A DNA stretch of 64,000 nt, from the NCBI RefSeq assembly GCF_000024965.1, contig NC_013530.1, forward strand, positions 2,914,001-2,978,000. The letters are read 5' to 3'. Of the stretch, positions 7,893 to 59,821 are shown piece after piece. Position 1 is the stretch's first letter; the number at the start of each line of letters is the position of its first letter. The position numbers were made by a program, and so were the translations under genes. The notes under the pieces were generated by a model, which saw only the letters and a program-made list of their open reading frames with translations, searched no databases and was not told the origin of the DNA. The stretch is from Xylanimonas cellulosilytica DSM 15894. GTDB lineage: Bacteria; Actinomycetota; Actinomycetes; Actinomycetales; Cellulomonadaceae.

Positions 7893-8957
7893 TCAGTAGG
7901 AGTAGTAGTCGCCGGAGGCGGCGAGCGCGATGAAGATGATCAACCCGATGATCGCCACGCCCAGGCTGGTCCACATCGCCGCCTTCGCGAGCCTCTCCTT
8001 GCGGCCCAGGCCGATGCCCGCCGCAACGACGCCGACCCACGCCGGAAGTCCGAAGGAGAAGATGCCGACTGCGGCAAGGACGAAGGCGACGATCGATGCG
8101 GGCGAGGAAGCCGGCACAGGGGTGGGTGCCACGATCGCGGCACCGGCGAACTGCAGCGTCGAGGTGCCGGGCGGGTGGGGTGTGCCCGGCTGGGCCGGAT
8201 TGACCTGGGGCTGCGCTGGCGCGGGGGCGTCGGCCATAGGCCGCGGGCTGGGGGACGGTTGCGCAACCACCGGAATGGGATCGGGCTTCCTTGGATCGGC
8301 CGACACCGTCTGCGCGAGGTAGTCGCCGATGGCAGCGTCGACGTCCTTCACCACGTCGGGACGGTTGCTCAGGCGCCGCAACAGGTCCATGAGGTCGTCT
8401 CGGGTGCGGGGGTCGTGCTCCTTCTTGAGGCTGAGCTTGATGTCCTCGAGCAGGCGCGTCTGCTGGGTCCAGCTCAACTCATCGGCTTCGAGCTGGACGA
8501 CGAAGTCGTGAATGTACGCACCCGGCACGGGCGGGCGTTCGGGCCTCGGCTCGACCGGCGTGCGCGGTCGGGCGCTCAGTCGTTTGACCTCGTTGAGCAG
8601 GGTGATGAACGAGTCGACTGACTGCGGGTCGTAGTCGAAGATCTGCTCGAGCGCCTCAGGCGTCCGGGTCAGCTCCACGTCATCGAGCCGGACGATGAGG
8701 ACGGGGATCCCGAGGGCTCGGGCGTAGACGCGCTCGGCCCGGCAGGCCTTCGACCTGCGCGAGTGCTGGGACAGCGCGTAGACGAGCACGTCGGACTGCT
8801 CGATCTGGTCGAGGATCTGGCTCCACCAGGTGCCGCCTCCGTGCAGCTCCTGGTCGATCCAGGTGTCGATATCCACGTTGCGCAACGACTTGGCCATGGT
8901 TTCGACGGACGGCCGGTCGAAGCTCGAGTAGCTGATGAAGACGCGGGGACCTTGCAT
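7893..8957 (-). CDS. TIR-domain protein with C-terminal membrane anchor
   Basis: The 354-residue protein begins with a TIR domain (residues 3–130): strand RVFISYSS, a 'DTWID' loop, and SKACRAE, where Glu75 sits at the position of the catalytic glutamate of NAD-cleaving TIR enzymes. A helical region (about 155–230, charged, 'DLLRRLSNRPDVV') and a proline-rich linker (232–285) follow. The end is strongly hydrophobic (288–318 and 327–347), like DUF4190-type two-helix proteins. The ATG start has AGGTGA upstream. It is the first gene of the cluster; prokaryotic TIR proteins typically make ADP-ribose-derived signals or deplete NAD. Activity and trigger are unknown. Confidence 0.8.
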   Translation of the reverse strand: MQGPRVFISYSSFDRPSVETMAKSLRNVDIDTWIDQELHGGGTWWSQILDQIEQSDVLVYALSQHSRRSKACRAERVYARALGIPVLIVRLDDVELTRTPEALEQIFDYDPQSVDSFITLLNEVKRLSARPRTPVEPRPERPPVPGAYIHDFVVQLEADELSWTQQTRLLEDIKLSLKKEHDPRTRDDLMDLLRRLSNRPDVVKDVDAAIGDYLAQTVSADPRKPDPIPVVAQPSPSPRPMADAPAPAQPQVNPAQPGTPHPPGTSTLQFAGAAIVAPTPVPASSPASIVAFVLAAVGIFSFGLPAWVGVVAAGIGLGRKERLAKAAMWTSLGVAIIGLIIFIALAASGDYYSY

Positions 8958-10097: not shown

Positions 10098-10125
10098 CTG
10101 CAAGCACAAAGGAGTGACACCGATC

Positions 10126-11865
10126 GTGCGAACCTCCCCCGGCACCGGCCCGGCGGCCTTCGCCGCCGTCGACCTCGGCGCCACCTCCGGCCGCGTCATG
10201 CTCGGGCTGCTGCACGACGGCGCCCGGGTCGAGCTGGTCGAGACGGGCCGGTTCGCCAACGGCCCCATCCCAGTCCCCACGCCCGACGGCGCGGACCTGC
10301 ACTGGGACGTGCTGCACCTGTGGCGCGGCATCCTCGACGGCTTGCGTGAGGCGGGCCGCGTCGCCGCCGCCCACGGCGCCTCGTTGGCGGGCATCGGCGT
10401 CGACTCGTGGGCCGTGGACTACGGCCTGCTCGACGCGCGCGGCGCCCTGGTCGCGTCCCCGCGCTGCTACCGCGACCCGGCGTTCCTGCCGGTCGCCGAC
10501 GAGGTGTACGCCCGCGTCCCCGCGGCGGAGCTGTACGCCGTCAACGGGCTCCAGCACCTGCCGTTCACCACGGCGTTCCAGCTCGTCGACGACGCCGCCC
10601 GCCCCGCGTTCGAGGGCGCACACGACCTGCTGCTGATCCCGGACCTGATCACCTGCTGGCTCACGGGGGTCAGGGTCGCCGAGGTCACGAACGCCTCGAC
10701 GACAGGACTCGTCGACGCCGCCACCCGCACGTGGGCCGAACCGCTGATCGACCGGCTGGGGCGGGAGTTCCCTGGGCTCGCCGGCCTGCGAGGCCTGCTG
10801 CCCGACCTGGTCGAGGCGGGCACCATCATCGGCCCGCTGTCCGCGACGGCCCAGAAACTGACGGGCCTCGGCGCGATACCGGTGGTCGCGGTCGCGTCGC
10901 ACGACACGGCCTCCGCCGTCGTCGGCACCCCGCTCCCACCCCCCACCCCGGTGGTTGAGCCTGTCGAAACCACCCCCACCTCCAACCCCACCCCGGTGGT
11001 TGAGCCTGTCGAAACCACCCCGCAGCGTGACGAACCCGTGGCTTCGACAGGCTCAACCACCGCGGGCGGGGTGGTTTCGACAGGCTCAACCACCGTAGGC
11101 GGGGTGGTTTCGACAGGCTCAACCACCGCAGAAGCGTCGACAGGCTCAACCACCGGGGCGGCCGCGTACATCTCCTCCGGGACGTGGTCGCTCGTCGGCC
11201 TCGAGCTCGACGCTCCCGTGCTGACCGAGGCCTCGCGCGAGGCCGGGTTCACCAACGAGCTCGGTCTGGACGGCACCGTGCGCTACCTGCACAACGTCAT
11301 GGGCCTGTGGGTCTTCGACGAGTGCCTGCGCGAGTGGGCCCGCTCGGGCGACGCGGAGGACCTCGACGAGCTGCTCGACGCCGCCGCGGCCGAGCCGGGC
11401 GGCCTCACGGTCGTGGACCTGGACGACCCCGCGTTCCTCGCCCCCGGCGACATGCCCCGCCGGTTCACCGCTGCGGCCGAGCGTGCGGGCCAGCCCGTCC
11501 CCGCGACCCGGCCCGCCCTCACCCGTGCGGTGCTCGACTCCCTGGCCGCGGCCTACGCCCGCACGATCCGGGCGGCGGCCGAGCTCGCGGGCGTGCGCAT
11601 CACCCAGGTCCACGTCGTCGGCGGCGGCTCGCAGAACGCGCTCCTGTGCCGCCTCACCGCGGACGCGACCGGCCTGCCCGTGGTCGCCGGCCCGGTCGAG
11701 GCGGCCGCGCTCGGCAACGTGCTCGTCCAGGCCCGTGCCGTCGGCGTCCTGGTGGACGATCCGTCGTCGGGCTCCGGGGCAGCCGGCGCCCCTCGCGGCC
11801 TGGGCGGCCTGCGCGACGTCGTCGCCGCGTCGTCGGACCTCGTCCGGTACGAACCCACGCACTGA
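10126..11865 (+). CDS. rhaB: Rhamnulokinase with an in-frame repeat insertion
   Basis: The protein belongs to the FGGY sugar-kinase family and fits rhamnulokinase, which phosphorylates L-rhamnulose at C1 in the cytoplasm. N-terminal ATP-binding loop ([15 protein letters not shown]), '[13 protein letters not shown]', '[10 protein letters not shown]' and the C-terminal '[17 protein letters not shown]' are all visible. GTG 10126 is chosen because AAAGGAG lies 11 bases before it; GTG 10114 overlaps that site. At 579 residues it is about 80–90 longer than usual: residues ~275–343 are encoded by six copies of the dispersed palindromic repeat, placed between '[12 protein letters not shown]' and 'AAYISSGTW'. 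The frame stays open, so the enzyme may tolerate the loop. Confidence 0.88.
10950..11155. repeat. Cluster of six dispersed palindromic repeats inside rhaB
   Basis: Two forward copies (10950–10974, 10995–11019) and four reverse copies (11038–11061, 11070–11094, 11103–11127, and a truncated one 11136–11154) of the GGTGGTT–11 nt–AACCACC element lie in tandem. Forward copies encode [10 protein letters not shown] and reverse copies encode VVSTGSTT. Spacers keep the rhaB frame open throughout. Confidence 0.9.
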
Positions 11866-11896: not shown

Positions 11897-13414
11897 TTGC
11901 GCGAGCTGACCGCCACCACCGCCCCCGCCCCGGAGCGCCCGACGACGATCCTGCAGTTCGGCGGCGGCAACTTCCTGCGCGCCTTCGTCGACCTCATGGT
12001 CCACGACGCCAACCGGGCGGGGGTGATGAACGCCGGGATCGCCGTCGTCTTCACCACCCCGAACGCCAACGGCACGTTCGAGCTGCTGCGCCGCCAGGAC
12101 GGCCGCTACCACGTGCTGCTGGAGGGCGTCCGGGACGGCGAGCCGGTGCGCGAGGTCACGCTGGTCGAGTCCGTCACCACGGCGGTACACGCCCACCGCG
12201 AGTTCGACGCGTACCGCGCCCTCTACCTCTCCCCCGAGCTGACCACGATCGTGTCGAACACGACCGAGGCCGGGATCGTGTGGGTCGAGGGCGACGACCT
12301 GACCGCGCAGCCACCGGCGAGCTTCCCCGCGAAGGTCACCGCGCTGCTGCACGACCGGTGGGAGCACTTCGGCGGCGCACCCGACAAGGGCCTGCGCATC
12401 GTGTGCTGCGAGCTCATCGAGGACAACGCGACCACGCTGCGCGAGTACGTGCTGCGGCACGCCGCCGCGGCCGGGCTGCCCGCCGCGTTCGTCGCCTGGG
12501 TCGAGACCGCCTGCTCGTTCCACGACACCCTCGTGGACCGCATCGTGCCCGGCTTCCCCCGCGACGAGATCGACGCCGTCCAGGCCGAGCTCGGCTACCG
12601 CGACGACCTGGTGGTCAAGGGAGAGCACTTCGGCGTGTGGGCCATCGCCACCGGCGAGCCGGGCGGCCCCGGCGAGGCGATCCGCGACGTGCTCCCCCTC
12701 GACCGCGCGGGCCAGCCGGTCGAGTTCCTGGCCGACATCCGCCCGTTCCGGGCCAAGAAGGTGCGCATCCTCAACGGCCTGCACACCGCGATGGCCGCCG
12801 TCGGCCTCCTTGCGGGCCGCAACGAGGTGAGCGACGCCGTCGCGAACCTCACCATCGCCTCGTACCTCGGCCACCTGCTGCACGGCGAGGTGCTGCCGTC
12901 CATCCCCGAGTACTCCGCGTCGGACGACGGCGCCGAGGCTCTGGCCGAGTTCGCGGACCGGATCACGGAACGCTTCACCAACCCCTCCCTGCACCACCGG
13001 CTCGCCGACATCTCGCTCAACTCGATCAGCAAGTGGCAGGCCCGCAACCTGCCGGTCGCGCTCGACGCCTGGGGCGCCGGCCGCGAGGCCCCGCTCACCG
13101 TGCTCGCCTTCGCGGCGCTCGCGGTGCTGTACAGCGGCCGGGGCTTCGACGCCGCCCGCGTCGCCGAGTCGGGTTTCGAGGTGCGCGACGACGCCGCCCT
13201 GGTCGCCCTGGTCCGCGACACGTTCCCGGCGGAGGGCACCGACGACGACGTCGAACGCTGGCTGCGCGGCGTGATCGACGCCGCAGGCTTCTTCTCGGCC
13301 GACGACGCCGCCGACGGTTACGCACCGGCGGCCCGCCTGGCCGCCGAGGCCGCCCCGCTCGCCCGCACGATCCTCGAGGAAGGCATCACCGTGACCCTGA
13401 AGACGAACGCCTGA
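11897..13414 (+). CDS. uxaB: Tagaturonate reductase (altronate oxidoreductase)
   Basis: The protein has about 505 residues and belongs to the polyol-specific long-chain dehydrogenase (mannitol dehydrogenase) family. The N-terminal 'ILQFGGGNFLRAFVD' dinucleotide-binding loop is the form typical of UxaB rather than UxuB. It reduces D-tagaturonate to D-altronate with NADH. The conserved 'VKGEHFGVWAI' and 'KVRILNGLHT' motifs near the active site are present. I prefer the TTG start at 11897, because AGAAGGAG sits six bases upstream; an in-frame ATG at 11870, four bases after the rhaB stop, has no such site. The next gene overlaps it by one base. Confidence 0.85.
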   Translation: MRELTATTAPAPERPTTILQFGGGNFLRAFVDLMVHDANRAGVMNAGIAVVFTTPNANGTFELLRRQDGRYHVLLEGVRDGEPVREVTLVESVTTAVHAHREFDAYRALYLSPELTTIVSNTTEAGIVWVEGDDLTAQPPASFPAKVTALLHDRWEHFGGAPDKGLRIVCCELIEDNATTLREYVLRHAAAAGLPAAFVAWVETACSFHDTLVDRIVPGFPRDEIDAVQAELGYRDDLVVKGEHFGVWAIATGEPGGPGEAIRDVLPLDRAGQPVEFLADIRPFRAKKVRILNGLHTAMAAVGLLAGRNEVSDAVANLTIASYLGHLLHGEVLPSIPEYSASDDGAEALAEFADRITERFTNPSLHHRLADISLNSISKWQARNLPVALDAWGAGREAPLTVLAFAALAVLYSGRGFDAARVAESGFEVRDDAALVALVRDTFPAEGTDDDVERWLRGVIDAAGFFSADDAADGYAPAARLAAEAAPLARTILEEGITVTLKTNA

Positions 13415-14916
13415 TGAGCGGCGACCAGAACCCCACCGCGCCGCGGCCGTCCTCGGCAGCGTCCGCCACGGGAGATCCCGCCGTCGTCCCGCAGTTCGCG
13501 CCCGTCCCGGCCGGGCGGGCCCGACGTCGCTACGCCGTCGTCGGCACCGGGCACCGCGCCGGGATGTACATGGACGCGATCACCGGCCCGCACGCCGACG
13601 TCGCTGAGCTCGTCGCCTGGTGCGACACCAACCCGGCCCGCATGGCGTACTACGACGCCGAGGTGGGCCGGGCGCTGGGCCTCGACGGTCCGGCCGGGCT
13701 CCCCACGTACGGCCCGGACGGGCTGGAGGCGATGGTGGTCGAGCAGCGCGTCGACGTCGTCGTCGTCACCACCCCGGACGTCACGCACGCCGACCTGGTC
13801 GCGCGGGCGCAGGCAGCGGGGGCCGACGTCGTCGTCGAGAAGCCGCTGACCACCACGGACGCCGGCTGCCGCACCATCACCGACTCGGTCAAGGCGACCG
13901 GCCGCGACGTCGTCATGACGTTCAACTACCGCTACTCGCCGCGGAACTCGAGCCTGCGCGAGGTCATCGCGTCGGGTGAGATCGGCGAGGTGACGAGCGT
14001 GCACTTCGAGTGGGTGCTCGACACGGTGCACGGGGCGGACTACTTCCGGCGCTGGCACCGGCAGCGGCAGAACTCCGGCTCGCTGCTCATCCACAAGTCG
14101 TCGCACCACTTCGACCTGGTCAACTGGTGGCTGGGCGACGTGCCCGCGCGCGTGTACGCGAGCGCCGGGCTGCGGTTCTACGGGGCGGCGAACGCTGCGG
14201 CACGAGGGCTGGGCGACCGGCCGGAGCGCGGCACCGGCGTCGTCGGCGACCCGTGGTCCTTCGACCTGACCGCCGACCCGCGGCTGCAGGCCCTCTACCT
14301 GGACGCGGAGCAGCACGACGGGTACCTGCGCGACCGGGACGTCTTCAGCGAAGGCATCACGATCGACGACAACATGGCGCTGGTCGTGGACTACGCGCGC
14401 GGCGCGACGATGACGTACTCGCTCAACGCGCACGCCCCCTGGGAGGGGTACACGGTCGCCGTCAACGGCACGAAGGGCCGGGCCGAGCTGACCGTCGTCG
14501 AGCGCGGCGTCGTCGTCATCGACGACCGCGGGCACGTGGTGCTGGACCCGTCCGCGACGCCGGAGACGCAGCAGGCCAAGCTCGACGCCGAGGGCATCCG
14601 GCCCGAGGGCGAGCGCCTGGTGGTGCAGAAGCACTGGCAGGCCGCACGCGAGTGGCCCATCCCCGCGGGCATCGGCGGGCACGGCGGCGGCGACGCCATC
14701 CTGCTCATGGACGTGTTCCGGCGCGACCTGCGGATCGGCGACGACCCGCTCGGCCGGGCGGCCGGCTACCGGGACGGCCTTGCGGCGGTCGCGGTGGGCA
14801 TCGCGGCCAACGAGTCGCTGCGCACCGGGCAGGCGGTACGGATCGCGGACCTCGACCTGGGCGAGAAGCTCACGGTGGTCGAGCCTGTCGAGACCACGCC
14901 GACAGACGCCGGATGA
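13414..14916 (+). CDS. Gfo/Idh/MocA-family oxidoreductase
   Basis: This 500-residue protein has an N-terminal NAD(P)-binding Rossmann domain (YAVVGTGHRAGMYMDAI, about 40–56), the 'EKPLTTTDAG' motif with the family lysine, and a C-terminal alpha/beta substrate domain with 'HKSSHHFDLVNWWLGD'. Relatives oxidise sugars, inositols or sugar acids, or act in glycoside cleavage. It starts at an ATG overlapping the uxaB stop and overlaps the next gene, so it is part of the rhaB operon. The last residues (487–495) are encoded by a copy of the dispersed repeat and read VVEPVETTP, a tail unlikely to belong to the original protein. The substrate is unknown. Confidence 0.8.
   Translation: MSGDQNPTAPRPSSAASATGDPAVVPQFAPVPAGRARRRYAVVGTGHRAGMYMDAITGPHADVAELVAWCDTNPARMAYYDAEVGRALGLDGPAGLPTYGPDGLEAMVVEQRVDVVVVTTPDVTHADLVARAQAAGADVVVEKPLTTTDAGCRTITDSVKATGRDVVMTFNYRYSPRNSSLREVIASGEIGEVTSVHFEWVLDTVHGADYFRRWHRQRQNSGSLLIHKSSHHFDLVNWWLGDVPARVYASAGLRFYGAANAAARGLGDRPERGTGVVGDPWSFDLTADPRLQALYLDAEQHDGYLRDRDVFSEGITIDDNMALVVDYARGATMTYSLNAHAPWEGYTVAVNGTKGRAELTVVERGVVVIDDRGHVVLDPSATPETQQAKLDAEGIRPEGERLVVQKHWQAAREWPIPAGIGGHGGGDAILLMDVFRRDLRIGDDPLGRAAGYRDGLAAVAVGIAANESLRTGQAVRIADLDLGEKLTVVEPVETTPTDAG
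14874..14898. repeat. Dispersed palindromic repeat at the 3' end of the Gfo/Idh/MocA gene
   Basis: One forward copy with a few changed bases (GGTGGTCGAGCC..., ...GAGACCACG) lies just before the stop codon and encodes VVEPVETTP. Confidence 0.8.
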
Positions 14917-17207
14917 CCTCCCCGTACGCGGCCCCCGCCACGGGCCGGGTCGACCGGGACGCCCTCCTGGACCGCCACTCCCCTCGCGTGACCGCGATCG
15001 ACCCGCGCTCGCCGCTCCAGGTGGGCAACGGGGAGCTCGCCTTCACCGCCGACGTCACCGGGCTGCAGACGCTGCCGGAGTCCTACCCCGTGGCGGGGAC
15101 CGGCACCCTGCTGGGCACGATGGCCCAGTGGAGCTGGCACAGCGTCCCGTTCGACACGCTGCCCGGCGTGCCGCCCGGCACCCCGGAACCGACGATCGAG
15201 TCGACGCTGCGCGAGTACGACTCGCCGCGCGGCCCGGTCCCCTACGTCGACCTGTCGACCGAGCAGTGGGGCGAGCCGGGCGGCGAGCCGTCGCTCGCCG
15301 AGGAGTGGCTGCGCAGCAACCCGCACCGCCTCGACCTGGGCCGCATCGGCCTGTGGCTGCCCGGCGGCGTCACCGCCGACGACGTCACCGACGTCGACCA
15401 GCGGCTCGACCTCGCCACGGGAGTGCTCACCTCGGCATTCACGGTGCGCGACCAGCGCTTCCGGGTGACGACGGCGGTGCACCCCGAACGCGACGAGCTC
15501 GCGATCCGCGTCGAGCGTGCCCCCACGGCGGTCGAGCCTGTCGAAACCACCCCACCCCCGGTGGTTGAGCCCACCGAACCCACCCCACCCCGGGCGGTCG
15601 AGCCCGCCCACACCACCCCACCCCCGGTGGTTGAGCCTGTCGAAACCACCCCACACCGCGATCCGGTCTCGACCACCCCGACCACCGGACCCGCCGCCGT
15701 CGGCCTCGAGCTAGCGTTCCCATACGGCTCGCAGGCCTGGGGCGACGCCCAGGACTGGAACCACCCCGAGGCGCACACCACCACGGTGACCGCGCTCGAC
15801 GGCGGGTTCGTCGTCGGCCGGGTGCTCGACGGGACCCGGTACACGGCCGCGATCACGGTCACAGGCGTGACGCTCACGGAACCCGCGCCGCACCACATCC
15901 GGCTCGTCGCGGAGGGCGGCTCGCTGCAGGCCGTCATCGCGTTCGCCCCCGCGGTCGCGGGCTCGCCTCAGGCTGCGCTCCCCGAGGACACGTTCCCCGA
16001 CGTCGTGCGCGCGTGCGCCGACGGGTGGGGCCAGTTCTGGGCCGACGGCGCCGCGATCTCCTTCGACGGCACCGCCGACCCGCGCGCGGCCGAGCTGGAG
16101 CGCCGCATCGTGCTGTCGCAGTACGTCACGGCGATCAACTGCGCGGGCTCGACGCCGCCGGCCGAGACCGGGCTCATGCTCAACTCGTGGCGCGGCAGGT
16201 TCCACCTGGAGATGACGTGGTGGCACACGGCGGCATTCCCGCTGTGGGGCCGCCCCGCACTGCTGGAGCGCACGCTCGCCTGGTACGCGACGATCCTCGA
16301 ACCCGCCCGCGCCACGGCCGCCCGGCAGGGTTTCGCGGGGGCCCGCTGGCCCAAGCAGACCGACCCGTCCGGCGCGGAGACGCCGTCGAGCATCGGCACG
16401 TTCCTGGTGTGGCAGCAGCCGCACCCGATCTACCTGGCCGAGCTGCTCTACCGGGCGTCTCCCACCCCGCGGACGCTGCGGCGTTGGGCGCCGATCGTGC
16501 GCGCGTCGGCCGAGTTCATGGCCTCCTTCGCCTGGCCCGACGGCGACGGGTTCCACCTGCCGGCGCCGCTGGTCCCCGCGCAGGAGTCCTACGCGCGCGA
16601 GCGGGCGACCACTCGGGACCCGACGTTCGAGCTGGCGTACTGGGCGTGGGGGCTGCGCGTCGCGGTGCAGTGGTGCGAGCGGCTCGGCGAGGAGGTGCCG
16701 CCGCTGTGGCGTGAGGTGGCCGCGGGGATGTGGCGCCCGCAGCCGCGCGACGGGGTCTACCCCGCGGTCGGCGTCGAGCCGTGGACGATCCGTACCGATC
16801 ACCCGTCGATGCTCGCGGCTCTCGGCGTCGTGCCCGAGACGGGCCTGATCGACCACGACGTCATGGCGGCGACGCTCGACGACGTCGTCGCCACCGGTGA
16901 GCAGGCGTGGGACTGGGACAGCACGTGGGGCTGGGACTACCCGATGGGCGCGATGACGGCGGCCCGCCTGGGCCGCCCGGAGGCGGCCGTGGACTGGCTC
17001 CTGGCGGATCGGGGCAAGAACGAGCACCTGCCCAACGGGCACAACTTCCAGACGCCCGAGCTGCCGGTGTACCTGCCGGGCAACGGCGGGCTGCTGACGG
17101 CGGTGGCGCTCATGGCGGGCGGCTGGGACGGCGCCCCGCACCGCCCGGCCCCGGGCTTCCCGTCCACCTGGCGGGTCCAGGCGGAGGGCTTCACCCGCCT
17201 GCCCTGA
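14913..17207 (+). CDS. Putative six-hairpin (alpha/alpha-barrel) glycoside hydrolase with a repeat insertion
   Basis: The 764-residue protein has no signal peptide. An N-terminal beta-rich domain starts with 'LQVGNGELAFTADVTGLQT'. The C-terminal half (about 390–750) is helical, with 'HLEMTWWHTAAFPLWGR', 'WPKQTDPSGAETPSSIG', 'WDWDSTWGWDYPMGAMTAA' and 'NFQTPELPVYLPGNGGLLTA', resembling GH65/GH95-type (alpha/alpha)6 enzymes. I cannot assign a family. The ATG overlaps the previous stop (ATGA). Residues ~205–246 come from four copies of the dispersed repeat and lie inside the N-terminal domain. Context suggests an intracellular enzyme acting on rhamnose- or uronate-containing oligosaccharides. Confidence 0.6.
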   Translation: MTSPYAAPATGRVDRDALLDRHSPRVTAIDPRSPLQVGNGELAFTADVTGLQTLPESYPVAGTGTLLGTMAQWSWHSVPFDTLPGVPPGTPEPTIESTLREYDSPRGPVPYVDLSTEQWGEPGGEPSLAEEWLRSNPHRLDLGRIGLWLPGGVTADDVTDVDQRLDLATGVLTSAFTVRDQRFRVTTAVHPERDELAIRVERAPTAVEPVETTPPPVVEPTEPTPPRAVEPAHTTPPPVVEPVETTPHRDPVSTTPTTGPAAVGLELAFPYGSQAWGDAQDWNHPEAHTTTVTALDGGFVVGRVLDGTRYTAAITVTGVTLTEPAPHHIRLVAEGGSLQAVIAFAPAVAGSPQAALPEDTFPDVVRACADGWGQFWADGAAISFDGTADPRAAELERRIVLSQYVTAINCAGSTPPAETGLMLNSWRGRFHLEMTWWHTAAFPLWGRPALLERTLAWYATILEPARATAARQGFAGARWPKQTDPSGAETPSSIGTFLVWQQPHPIYLAELLYRASPTPRTLRRWAPIVRASAEFMASFAWPDGDGFHLPAPLVPAQESYARERATTRDPTFELAYWAWGLRVAVQWCERLGEEVPPLWREVAAGMWRPQPRDGVYPAVGVEPWTIRTDHPSMLAALGVVPETGLIDHDVMAATLDDVVATGEQAWDWDSTWGWDYPMGAMTAARLGRPEAAVDWLLADRGKNEHLPNGHNFQTPELPVYLPGNGGLLTAVALMAGGWDGAPHRPAPGFPSTWRVQAEGFTRLP
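15527..15650. repeat. Four dispersed palindromic repeats inside the putative glycosidase gene
   Basis: Two well-kept forward copies (15527–15551 and 15626–15650) flank two degenerate ones (about 15560–15584 and 15594–15618). All are in the same orientation and frame and encode variants of [10 protein letters not shown]. The degenerate middle copies suggest an older expansion than in rhaB. Confidence 0.85.
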
Positions 17208-28019: not shown

Positions 28020-28035
28020 CCCTGAACGCCGCTGT

Positions 28036-28091
28036 GTGGTTTCGACAGGCTCAACCACCGGGCACCGGTGGTTGAGCCTGTCGAAACCACC
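28036..28091. repeat. Head-to-head pair of dispersed repeats between uxuB and uxuA
   Basis: A reverse copy (28036–28059) and a forward copy (28067–28091) face each other with a short CCGGGCACC-like centre. Together they form a nearly perfect hairpin of about 26-bp arms inside the uxuB–uxuA gap, 23 bp before the uxuA start. It could act as a processing or termination signal. Confidence 0.88.
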
Positions 28092-31307: not shown

Positions 31308-31325
31308 AACCGGCCCCTCCGGCGG

Positions 31326-31498
31326 TTGAGCCACCCCGGTGGTTGAGCCACCCCGGTGGTTGAGCCTGTCGAAACCACCCCACTGGTCAAGGTGGTTTCG
31401 ACAAGCTCAACCACCGGAGGGCGGTCGGAGTGGTTTCGACAAGCTCAACCACCGGAGAGGGGAGGCTCAACCACCGGAGGGGGCAGGCTCAACCACCG
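31326..31498. repeat. Array of dispersed palindromic repeats between convergent genes
   Basis: The array holds full copies forward at 31355–31379 and reverse at 31391–31415 and 31430–31453; the two reverse copies share an A variant (ACAAGCTC). Truncated halves lie at 31338–31352, 31463–31476 and 31484–31498. It fills most of the gap between the beta-helix gene and the FKBP gene. Confidence 0.88.
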
Positions 31499-55830: not shown

Positions 55831-58800
55831 TCAGCGGGTGCCGACCGCGGCCGCGGCCGAGACCTCGCCGCGGATGACGGCGTCGACGAGCTGGCGGGCC
55901 CAGGTGAGGACCTCGGCTCCGCGCAGGGGTCGGCCGCCGATGCGCGCCGTCGTCGGGAAGGGGACCAGGAACGCGCGGATCGCGGGCTTGAGGATGACGC
56001 CGGGGTAGAGCCGCTTGAGGCGCAGCTGCGCCGACTCGGCCAGGTCCACCGGGGCGAACCGCACGTACTTGCCCTGCGCGGTGACGTCCGAGAGCCCTGC
56101 CGCGCGGGCATGGTTGCGGAAGTCGGCCACGTCGAACAGCGCGGAGGCGACGTCGGGCAGCGGGCCATACCGGTCGACCAGCTCGGCACGGACCTCCGCG
56201 AGCGCCGCCGCGTCCGTGGCCGCGGCGATCTTCTTGTACGCCTCGAGCCGGAGCCGCTCGGTGGCGATGTAGGACTCGGGCAGGTGGGCGTCGACGGGCA
56301 GCTCGATGGTGACCTCGGGCTGCTCCTCCGGGGCGTCGCCGCGGAAGTTCTGCACGGCTTCCCCCACCATGCGCACGTACAGGTCGAACCCGACGCCCTG
56401 GATGTGGCCGGACTGCTCGCCGCCGAGCAGGTTGCCGGCGCCGCGGATCTCGAGGTCCTTCATGGCGATCTGCATGCCCGCGCCGAGGTCGGTGTGGGCG
56501 GCCATGGTGGCGAGCCGGTCGTGGGCCTGCTCGGTGAGCGGCTTCTCGGGCGGGTACAGGAAGTAGGCGTAGGCGCGCTCGCGGCCACGGCCGACGCGGC
56601 CGCGCAGCTGGTGCAGCTGGCTCAGGCCCAGCATGTCCGCGCGTTCCAGGATGAGCGTGTTGGCGTTGGAGATGTCCAGGCCGGTCTCGACGATGGTGGT
56701 GCACACCAGGACGTCGAGCTCCTTCTCCCAGAACCCGCGGATGACCTGGTCGAGCTGGTGCTCGCCCATCTTGCCGTGCGCGACGCCGATGCGGGCCTCG
56801 GGCACCAGCTCGGCCAGGCGCGACGCCGTCCGCTGGATCGACTCGACGCGGTTGTGGACGTAGAACACCTGGCCCTCGCGCAGGAGCTCGCGGCGGACGG
56901 CGGCGGAGATCTGCCGCTCCTCGTAGGCGCCCACGTAGGTGAGCACGGGGTGGCGTTCCTCGGGCGGGGTCGCGAGCGTGGACATCTCGCGGATGCCGGT
57001 GACGGCCATCTCGAGCGTGCGCGGGATGGGCGTCGCCGACATGGCGAGCACGTCCACGTTGGTGCGGAGCTGCTTGAGGGTCTCCTTGTGCTCGACGCCG
57101 AAGCGCTGCTCCTCGTCGATGATCACCAGGCCGAGGTCCTTGAACTGCACGGCCCCGGTGATGAGCCGGTGGGTGCCGATGACGACGTCGACGGTGCCGT
57201 CCTTGAGGCCCTTGATGGTCTCCTCGGACTCGCGCGGGTTCTGGAAGCGGCTCAGCGCCGCGACCTTCACGGGGAAGCCCTGGTAGCGCTCGGAGAAGGT
57301 CTCGAAGTGCTGCTGGACGAGCAGCGTCGTCGGGACGAGCACGGCGACCTGCTTGCCGTCCTGGATCGCCTTGAACGCGGCCCGGATCGCGATCTCGGTC
57401 TTGCCGTAGCCGACGTCGCCGCACACCAGGCGGTCCATCGGCGTCGGCTTCTCCATGTCGGCCTTGACCTCGTCGATGGTGGAGAGCTGGTCGGGCGTCT
57501 CGATGTACGCGAAGGCGTCCTCGAGCTCGCGCTGCCACGGGGTGTCGGCGCCGAACGCGTGACCCTGGGTGGCCATGCGCGCGGAGTACAGCCGGATGAG
57601 CTCGCCCGCGATCTCCTTGACGTGCTTGCGGGCCTTGGCCTTGGTGTTCTTCCAGTCGGCGCCGCCCATCTTGCTGAGCGACGGGGCCTCGCCGCCGACG
57701 TACTTGGTGACCTGGTCGAGCTGGTCCATGGGCACGAAGAGCCGGTCGCCGGGCTGCCCGCGCTTGCTGCTCGCGTACTCCAGCACCAGGTACTCGCGGG
57801 TGGCCGCGTTGGAGCCGGCCCCGAGGGTCCGCTGCACCATCTCGACGAACCTGCCGACGCCGTGCTGCTCGTGCACCACGTAGTCCCCGGCCCGCAGCTG
57901 GAGGGGGTCGACGACATTGCGGCGTCGGGACGGCAGCTTGCGCATGTCGCGTGTGCCGGTGCCCTGGCGGCCGGTGAGGTCGGACTCGGAGAACACGGCG
58001 AGCTGGAGATCTGGGGCCACGAAGCCCTTGCCCACCAGGGCGGGCAGCACCAGGACGACGCCGGGATCGGGCTGCTCGTCGAGCACCGAGACCAGGCGGG
58101 CGGGGCAGTCGGCGGCCATGAGCTGCTCGACCATGCGCTTGGCCGGGCCGTGGCCCTCGGTGGTGAGCACGAGCCGCCACTGGTCACGCTGCAGGCGGCG
58201 CACCTCTTCCAGCGCGCGCTCCAGGTCGCCGCGGTACGACTCGACCTCGCGGGCCTTGATGGTGTGCGTGGTCACGCCGTCGGTGGTGACGCCCTCGGTG
58301 GTTGAGCCTGTCGAAACCACCTGACCGGCACGCTGTGGGGTGGTTTCGACAGGCTCAACCACCGCGTCCGCGGCGTCGGGGTCCAGGCCGAACGCCGACA
58401 GCGTCCACCAGCCCAGGCCGCGGCGGGCCGCGACCGCCCGCGTGTCGGCGAAGCTCGCGAACGACGCCGAGGACAGGTCGATGGGTGCGGCACCGCCGGC
58501 CACCGCGCCCGTCCACGCCGCGGCGAGGAACTCCTCCGTCGTCGCCACCAGGTCGTGGGCCCGACGGCGCACCCGCTCCGGTTCGTCGATGACCAGGAGC
58601 GCGTCGTCGGGCACCAGGTCGAGCACCGGCACCAACTCGTCCACGAGCACGGGGGCGAGCGACTCCATGCCCTCGACGGCGACGCCCGCCGCGAGCCGGT
58701 CGAGCATCTCGACGGCGCCCGGCATCGTCTCCACGAGCGCCGCGGCGCGGGCCCGGACGCTCGCGGTGAGCAGGATCTCGCGGCACGGCGGAGCCCACAG

Positions 58801-59487
58801 GCCCTGTTGCGCGATCTCCAACGAGCGCTGGTCGGCCACGGAGAACCAGCGGATCTCGCTGACCTCGTCGCCCCAGAACTCCACACGCAGCGGGTGGTCC
58901 TCCGTGGGCGGGAACACGTCCAGGATGCCGCCGCGCACCGCGAACTCGCCGCGCCGCTCCACCATGTCCACGCGCGAGTAGGCGGCCGCGACGAGGCGCT
59001 CCGCGACGTCGGTGAGGTCCGCGACGTCGCCGTCGTGCAGAGCGACCGGCTCCAGCTCGCCCAGCCCCGAGACCACCGGCTGCAGCAGGGCGCGCGCCGG
59101 CATCACCAGGACCCGGATCGGCCCCGCCGGACCAGTCTCCGGCACGGGGTGCGCCAGCCGCCGGAACACCGCGATGCGCCGCGCGACCGTGTCCGCACGC
59201 GGCGAGAGCCGCTCGTGCGGGAGGGTCTCCCACGCCGGGAGCACCGCGACCTCGTCGGCCTGCTCGTCCGGCAGGTACGCCCGCACGGACGCGGCCAGCT
59301 CGTCGGCCTGCCGCCCCGTCGCCGTGACGACCACGACCGGGCGCTGCTTCGCCGCCTCGACCAGCAGCGGTGCGCGCACCCCCTGCGGCCCGACGACGTC
59401 GACGAACCCGCGGGTGCGCACATCCTCGAGGGCGGCGGCGGCGCCCGGGTCGGCGAGGAGGGCGGGTACGAGGCCAGTGAGGTTCAC
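55831..59487 (-). CDS. mfd: Transcription-repair coupling factor with an in-frame repeat insertion
   Basis: The 1218-residue protein releases stalled RNA polymerase and recruits UvrA to damaged DNA. A UvrB-like N-terminal region, the RNA-polymerase-interaction domain ('AGDYVVHEQHGVGRF'), and a RecG-like translocase are visible: Walker A GDVGYGKTE, DEEQ box 'IIDEEQRFG' and 'LQRLxGRVGRG'-type motif VI ('QLRGRVGRGRERAY'). The GTG at 59487 has GGAG eight bases upstream. Residues ~376–398 (VVEPVETTP ... VVSTGSTT) derive from two copies of the dispersed repeat, placed before the polymerase-interaction domain. Confidence 0.95.
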   Translation of the reverse strand: MNLTGLVPALLADPGAAAALEDVRTRGFVDVVGPQGVRAPLLVEAAKQRPVVVVTATGRQADELAASVRAYLPDEQADEVAVLPAWETLPHERLSPRADTVARRIAVFRRLAHPVPETGPAGPIRVLVMPARALLQPVVSGLGELEPVALHDGDVADLTDVAERLVAAAYSRVDMVERRGEFAVRGGILDVFPPTEDHPLRVEFWGDEVSEIRWFSVADQRSLEIAQQGLWAPPCREILLTASVRARAAALVETMPGAVEMLDRLAAGVAVEGMESLAPVLVDELVPVLDLVPDDALLVIDEPERVRRRAHDLVATTEEFLAAAWTGAVAGGAAPIDLSSASFASFADTRAVAARRGLGWWTLSAFGLDPDAADAVVEPVETTPQRAGQVVSTGSTTEGVTTDGVTTHTIKAREVESYRGDLERALEEVRRLQRDQWRLVLTTEGHGPAKRMVEQLMAADCPARLVSVLDEQPDPGVVLVLPALVGKGFVAPDLQLAVFSESDLTGRQGTGTRDMRKLPSRRRNVVDPLQLRAGDYVVHEQHGVGRFVEMVQRTLGAGSNAATREYLVLEYASSKRGQPGDRLFVPMDQLDQVTKYVGGEAPSLSKMGGADWKNTKAKARKHVKEIAGELIRLYSARMATQGHAFGADTPWQRELEDAFAYIETPDQLSTIDEVKADMEKPTPMDRLVCGDVGYGKTEIAIRAAFKAIQDGKQVAVLVPTTLLVQQHFETFSERYQGFPVKVAALSRFQNPRESEETIKGLKDGTVDVVIGTHRLITGAVQFKDLGLVIIDEEQRFGVEHKETLKQLRTNVDVLAMSATPIPRTLEMAVTGIREMSTLATPPEERHPVLTYVGAYEERQISAAVRRELLREGQVFYVHNRVESIQRTASRLAELVPEARIGVAHGKMGEHQLDQVIRGFWEKELDVLVCTTIVETGLDISNANTLILERADMLGLSQLHQLRGRVGRGRERAYAYFLYPPEKPLTEQAHDRLATMAAHTDLGAGMQIAMKDLEIRGAGNLLGGEQSGHIQGVGFDLYVRMVGEAVQNFRGDAPEEQPEVTIELPVDAHLPESYIATERLRLEAYKKIAAATDAAALAEVRAELVDRYGPLPDVASALFDVADFRNHARAAGLSDVTAQGKYVRFAPVDLAESAQLRLKRLYPGVILKPAIRAFLVPFPTTARIGGRPLRGAEVLTWARQLVDAVIRGEVSAAAAVGTR
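58297..58363. repeat. Two dispersed repeats inside mfd
   Basis: A forward copy (58297–58321) and a reverse copy (58339–58363) face each other within the coding region, 17 bp apart. Both keep the mfd frame open. Confidence 0.9.
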
Positions 59488-59821
59488 GAGTGACGCTCCG
59501 GGGTGTTCAGCCAGATCGGTGGTGGGGCGCTCGCAGCGGTCGAGTGCGCGGCGGTCGAGCCGCCCCCGAAGGTCGAGCCACCCCCGAAGGTCGAGCCGCC
59601 ACCCGGTGGTTGAGCCTGTCGAAACCACCCCACCGTCATCGTGCGGGCACACGACGACGGGCCCGGATCTCCGCAAGGCGGGGTGTCCGGGCTGTGGGAC
59701 CAGGGTACGCGGCGAGGGCTGCGCGGGGTGGTTTCGACAGGCTCAACCCAGGGGTTTCGACAGGCTCAACCACCGGGACGGGGTGGGGTGGTTTCGACAG
59801 GCTCAACCACCGGGGGGCGGC
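59488..59821. other. Gap of 334 bp between mfd and the next gene, mostly repeats
   Basis: No gene is visible. The mfd promoter must lie in the first part. Short GGTCGAGCC half-units occur near 59536–59596, and the second half is filled by the repeat cluster listed separately. Confidence 0.6.

Follow-up and report, generated by a model that had tools for sequence, protein, structure and literature searches.

The six palindromes that expand the rhamnulokinase gene rhaB of the soil bacterium Xylanimonas cellulosilytica DSM 15894 probably form an array of mobile palindromes of a REP/REPIN-like, non-autonomous kind that grew locally and was filtered by selection at the protein level. The array lies in a window of 64,000 nucleotides (bases 2914001-2978000 of contig 1 of this genome, here G000), to which positions refer unless otherwise noted. 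According to the sections of the X. cellulosilytica XIL07T genome report considered here, the genome comprises 3,831,380 bp, including an 88,604-bp plasmid (PMC3035249).

An in-frame palindrome array in rhaB

The host gene (10114-11865, plus strand) encodes a protein of 583 aa that matches the NCBIfam rhamnulokinase profile TIGR02627 (E 2.4e-109) in two stretches and with a score below the curated cut-off, both of which the insert would explain. RhaB also contains the Pfam domains FGGY_N (residues 18-271) and FGGY_C (351-542), and its best fold match is the E. coli L-rhamnulose kinase (2cgk, TMt 0.92). An in-frame insert at about residues 275-349 (10936-11160, plus strand), delimited by BLAST breaks, loop lengths and pLDDT, is flanked by the SHDTAS and SSGTWSL motifs within one open frame, which agrees with an earlier sequence-only reading that placed the repeats between two conserved kinase motifs with the frame intact. 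The loop comes after the HDT motif, whose aspartate serves as catalytic base in kinases of this family. In an AlphaFold2 model built from 42 aligned sequences, mean pLDDT is 87.1 and residues 290-345 fall below 50, which would fit disorder at the insert. Kinase activity is putatively retained despite the insert.

The insert consists of two forward and then four reverse copies of GGTGGTTGAGCCTGTCGAAACCACC, which occupy 10953-11151 and share a single open frame. Their 19-bp cores are positioned at 10953 and 10998 on the plus strand and at 11040, 11073, 11106 and 11133 on the minus strand, with 0, 0, 1, 0, 0 and 3 mismatches, respectively. Copy 1 (10950-10974, plus) reads VVEPVETT, and copy 2 (10995-11019, plus) forms the left half of an inverted pair with tags outside, the right half of which is copy 3 (11037-11061, minus), located 42 nt away and reading VASTGSTT. 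Copies 4 (11070-11094, minus) and 5 (11103-11127, minus) each follow the preceding copy by 33 nt, and copy 6 (11130-11154, minus) is the degenerate one. The sequence-only reading had described six in-frame palindromes in alternating order, of which the count and frame hold but the order does not, as two PVVEPVETT units come first and V[AV]STGSTT then follows four times, shortened to ASTGSTT in the final unit.

We compared this region with rhaB-like genes from other genomes. A BLAST search covered 39 genomes (our own and 38 others), and most rhaB-like matches were split into an N-terminal segment ending at residues ~274-280 and a C-terminal segment starting at ~343-351, with few bases between. 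Measuring from SHDTAS to GTW gave a loop at 80 of 110 loci, 69 of them distinct, with the 30 loci lacking the motif excluded. The window's loop has 99 residues, whereas those of relatives have 27-44 in 68 of the 69 distinct cases and 84 in the remaining one (G023). The palindrome-derived segment is absent from all 69 distinct loops, which indicates that the insert is not a conserved protein domain; such conservation would, by the earlier reading's own terms, have refuted it. The G023 loop (L004) is an 84-residue Pro/Thr repeat at the same site with no palindrome copy within five mismatches, which shows that the RhaB loop can also lengthen by unrelated sequence, independently of the palindrome.

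Palindrome inserts are more general than the earlier observation in rhaB. In-frame inserts are missing from the relatives' counterparts of rhaB and, in G009, from those of two further genes, the three host genes that comparison with orthologues covered. A Gfo/Idh/MocA oxidoreductase gene (13414-14916) carries a single copy in the same frame at its C-terminus (14874-14898, plus strand), where the G009 relative ends in DLDLGDDLS. The neighbouring gene (14913-17207), which has no Pfam match, contains an array in the VVEPVETT frame with degenerate copies between (15527-15650, plus strand), and the array region measures 193 nt compared with 37 nt in G009. An mfd/TRCF-type gene on the minus strand (55834-59487) contains a 67-bp inverted pair, that is, a REPIN-like unit, in the same frame (58297-58363, plus strand). 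Separately, the window holds a minus-strand ORF at 7893-8957, beginning MQGPRVFISYSSFDRPSVE, which looks TIR-domain-like by eye.

Copies, arrays and tag across the genome

Across the whole genome, exact matches to the 19-mer number 220 in forward and 217 in reverse orientation (437), compared with 0 for the reversed control, so the rhaB array is not a product of chance. We also used a 1.262-Mb sample (60 stretches of 20 kb plus the window, with overlap removed) and allowed up to three mismatches. This sample contains 227 copies, compared with 1 for the reversed control, and the copies group into 89 clusters of 1-8. Adjacent copies form 44 (+-), 10 (-+), 36 (++) and 48 (--) pairs, such that head-tail neighbours are commonest (84/138). 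Exactly 42 nt separates 18 of the 44 (+-) pairs, and certain (+-) centres recur, namely ACCCCACGCTGGAAGT, found on either strand at 3 separate sites, and ACCCCACGCGATCACGGTGGGGT, found at 2 sites separated by 6.7 kb. Spacers between direct copies are frequently the same inside one array and different between arrays. Most copies stand in arrays around an inverted pair, as in REPINs, and the pattern of pairs and spacers fits movement of the inverted pair as a single unit with tandem growth around it. One intergenic pair (28035-28091) has its tags inside, with the reverse copy preceding the forward copy. A CRISPR-like array was ruled out, as the spacers of direct copies are not only short and rich in C but frequently the same throughout an array, and both orientations are present.

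The palindrome is tagged on one side. A left CGSY tag accompanies 208/227 copies in G000, 117/157 in G002, 51/87 in G010, 22/26 in G126 and 19/23 in G029, and CGSY occurs on the mirror side of only 4, 17, 10, 1 and 0 of the same copies, respectively. With respect to REPs, the palindrome is likewise short and high in copy number, and its 25-mer has a 7-bp stem; its dimers also have their tags outside, a frequent 42-nt spacing and some centres common to separate sites. Its tag is CGSY rather than the GTAG or CGTC of REPs. When folded as DNA, two examples of the inverted pair each formed one hairpin (-35 and -28 kcal/mol; z -11.3 and -8.3), and the bare 19-mer hardly folds.

Based on these features, we propose that the unit is CGSY-GGTTGAGC[C/T]TGTCGAAACC, which would have been widened to a 25-bp palindrome in Xylanimonas, and that the likely transposing form is the inverted pair of ~67 bp with both tags outside, which could fold into one long hairpin. 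After such a seed lands, tandem duplication would add copies at its outer flanks, which would give rise to (+)n(-)m arrays. Tandem growth would be the expansion step, and transposition of the pair would precede it.

Partial copies also occur. Half-elements in tandem (e.g., CCGGTGGTTGAGCCACC, period 17) adjoin full copies at 31319-31366 and 59553-59616 of the window, and several intragenic arrays end in half copies. At L156:1464-1756 (contig 1 of G000, about position 2791464), two successive 116-nt steps have identical spacers and one palindrome each, which shows local tandem duplication of a segment larger than the element.

Reading frame and host genes

To assign reading frames, genes were called by a codon-usage script with repeats masked from scoring. 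In G000, 86 of 88 intragenic copies are in one favoured phase, reading VVEPVETT (55) or VVSTGSTT (31); the other two read GGFDRLNH, and none reads WLSLSKP or WFRQAQP. The stretches from the other genomes were picked around copies rather than randomly, and in these the favoured phase holds 26/28 copies in G002 (same genus), 9/10 in G126 (other genus) and 8/8 in G029 (other family), or 43/46 when pooled. Counted by cluster, 34/35, 16/18, 4/5 and 3/3 lie wholly in the favoured phase in G000, G002, G126 and G029 (57/61 pooled, with G010 left out). The preference is weaker in G010 (15/27 copies, 7/12 clusters), a same-genus draft (L240-L259) that is 65% complete and 58.8% GC in the part taken and for which a lower GC3 threshold gave weak, uncertain gene calls; this genome may use other frames. 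Spacings follow the same trend, as 46/47 are divisible by three inside genes compared with 28/91 elsewhere in G000, and 8/10 compared with 22/72 in G002.

The sequence-only reading had argued for selection from both orientations being stop-free. That argument is weak alone, as five of six element frames are stop-free, yet the near-single phase within genes supports its conclusion. Stop codons were rejected as an explanation for the imbalance of phases 1 and 2, as intergenic arrays read as coding are similarly open in both (33/36 compared with 35/36 in G000; 38/40 compared with 37/40 in G002). Part of the skew may stem from codon composition. A related explanation, which we consider unlikely, is that the element lands by CGSY targets that fall mostly in one codon phase of GC-rich genes. 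If the tag is a pre-existing target, CGST in called genes predicts the favoured phase for 68% of forward and 55% of reverse insertions, and any CGSY predicts it for 57% in reverse orientation but merely 33% in forward orientation. When only phases 1 and 2 are considered, the forward value of 0.80 (9977/12530) makes 34 uniform clusters out of 34 improbable (p about 4e-4). The spacings of the other copies, which are likewise kept divisible by three, also speak against a target effect alone. Target choice may contribute to the skew yet hardly yields 57/61 clusters, and we consider protein-level selection its probable main cause. Under selection of this kind, genic insertions and expansions would survive almost only with spacings divisible by three and in the VVEPVETT/VVSTGSTT phase, and the encoded stretch would be tolerated in loops and near termini.

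Clusters are scarce within genes overall: coding sequence makes up 89% of the sample, yet only 35/89 clusters are entirely genic (binomial p 1e-29). Pfam was run on 30 of the 33 copy-holding genes, two of which had no match, and hosts were named by domain. These include SMC (hinge), an FtsY-like GTPase, an Mfd-type helicase, an SdhA-like flavoprotein, a DUF3418 helicase that carries three clusters and a glutamyl-tRNA reductase (HemA type) that carries five tandem copies, as well as delta-aminolevulinate dehydratase (HemB type), NADH dehydrogenase chain 6, glycosidases, peptidases and transporters. Judged by these domain matches, the host genes include housekeeping types. In a separate observation, an annotated Gfo/Idh/MocA oxidoreductase on an Arthrobacter plasmid (NZ_CP012477.1, L281:1857-3137) has two C-terminal copies in the favoured frame, and the window's own Gfo/Idh/MocA gene likewise carries a C-terminal copy.

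The placement of intergenic clusters is compatible with retention of the element because of a function as DNA or RNA, such as a terminator, an mRNA stability determinant or a nucleoid or gyrase site, with genes as bystanders. These clusters comprise 22 convergent, 24 codirectional and 1 divergent in G000 (1/47, p 3e-6) and 23, 19 and 4 in G002, and the rhaB insert folds strongly as RNA (-149.9 kcal/mol compared with -90.8 for shuffles, z -12.4). However, copy numbers from 0 to 513 across family genomes argue against any general role, and a strong intragenic mRNA hairpin would be expected to hamper translation, which makes this explanation improbable. We give still less credence to the idea that the encoded peptide is useful as a linker or interaction segment selected per protein, even though these peptides turn up repeatedly across many unrelated proteins, in other genomes and in the Arthrobacter plasmid oxidoreductase. 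The hosts are unrelated, 69 distinct loops of relatives do without the peptide, 54/89 clusters are not wholly genic, the two orientations encode different middles, and the structure model is of low confidence in this segment, as expected for disorder. Finally, repeats can mislead assemblers, but an assembly or gene-call artefact is scarcely credible for a complete genome reported from Sanger and 454 data (in the sections of PMC3035249 considered here) in which 46/47 intragenic spacings keep frame with repeats masked in gene scoring, and the skew recurs in three other assemblies.

Distribution, mobility and known systems

Matches to a gapped pattern of the palindrome were found in 20/150 family genomes and 29/394 class genomes, although some of the class-level hits contain long gaps and resemble chance matches and the reversed pattern gave 6 matches in 5/394 genomes. 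Counts per family genome peak at the 513 of X. cellulosilytica, and two same-genus relatives have 194 (G010) and 181. The Y1 transposase domain (PF01797) was not found in our genome (0/1) or in any of 20 repeat-bearing family genomes (0/20), with control genomes positive, and the NF047646 profile gave no match in 6/6 genomes; these searches found no RAYT in the same genome as the repeats. Alignments to relatives revealed no clean insertion junction and no target duplication. The active spread suggested by the sequence-only reading gains from the patchy, lineage-specific expansion and from inverted pairs that have a centre in common at distinct sites, but our searches found no mobilising enzyme to go with it.

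We also searched viral sequences. The 19-mer (GG variant) occurs at 14 viral loci, several of which look like chance matches, and at 5/14 the copy is read in the favoured phase by the longest frame that spans it. L289 (VVSTGSTS frame) and L293 fit this phase, and the L280 copy lies in two overlapping frames. L280 (8836-8860) and L289 (about 12006-12024) are AT-rich contigs (38% GC) with one copy each; in L289, a related copy with CCC/GGG arms adjoins, which places both arm types side by side. Swapping the arms (CCTGAGCNTGTCGAAGG) gave matches in at least 120 stretches of viral sequence. The idea of a broader superfamily of this kind was rejected, as mismatched-arm controls gave 29 and 77 compared with 47 for matched GTT/AAC arms, which leaves arm covariation unsupported. 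The CC variant follows no strict phase rule, as 57 of 88 occurrences have a longest open frame of at least 200 codons and 29 of these 57 are in the equivalent phase.

The mobile-palindrome reading that we favour is weakened by the lack of a Y1 transposase, by the phase counts in G010 and at viral loci, by the part of the skew that codon composition would give, and by the G023 loop. The poor folding of the bare 19-mer and the lack of clean junctions in the alignments also count against it, and movement itself was not seen. A more far-reaching possibility, which we regard as doubtful, is that the palindrome is shaped for intragenic life, with both orientations open in one phase, benign disordered peptides and arrays growing even in core genes, and that a non-Y1 enzyme moves it as it is carried between distant bacteria, including several actinobacterial families and, judging by the AT-rich viral contigs, other hosts.

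As far as the open-access text goes, the Xylanimonas palindrome family appears previously undescribed. The literal repeat strings occur in no relevant paper in that text (figures and supplements aside), and no actinobacterial REPs are among the matches listed. With its high copy number, the family is a natural experiment on the capacity of proteins to take up insertion after insertion: copies run to the hundreds, one-third of the genome has dozens of host genes, and same-genus relatives with few or no copies provide contrast. Two questions become testable with it, namely whether the frame of mobile DNA inside genes is set by peptide selection or by the insertion target, and how REP-like elements lacking a transposase of their own are moved.

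Several features have counterparts in the sections of the sources considered here. Like GTAG/CGTC REPs (PMC3733652), the palindrome is short and high-copy, is tagged at one end, forms tags-outside dimers with conserved spacers, has convergent or codirectional intergenic placement and occurs inside ORFs; intragenic single units and clusters of those REPs code for up to 43-82 aa, and CGTC-type REPs, like our palindrome, have no known transposase. It differs in its CGSY tag and in its tandem neighbours (84/138), which are absent or rare in most genomes of that study, and in its single-phase rule, none being reported there, the supplementary intragenic table aside. The word Actinobacteria is missing from the text of that source as considered, but untagged REP-like sequences in M. 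tuberculosis are mentioned. As with REPINs (PMC3116915), an inverted REP pair is the likely moving unit and ordered tandem clusters occur, but unlike the REPIN/RAYT system described there, RAYT-type transposases are absent from 20/20 genomes and 35/89 clusters are wholly genic. The closest parallel for in-frame palindromes in genes of conserved proteins is Rickettsia RPE (review PMC2229807), of which one tested RPE-containing product was made and active; RPE units in Rickettsia measure 105-146 bp, in contrast to the 25-bp unit, ~67-bp pair and tandem arrays of these actinobacteria. Taken together, intragenic palindromes are known already from RPE and GTAG/CGTC REPs, and this family is set apart by its tag, the abundance of tandem copies, the lack of a Y1 transposase and a near-exclusive phase in 4/5 genomes.
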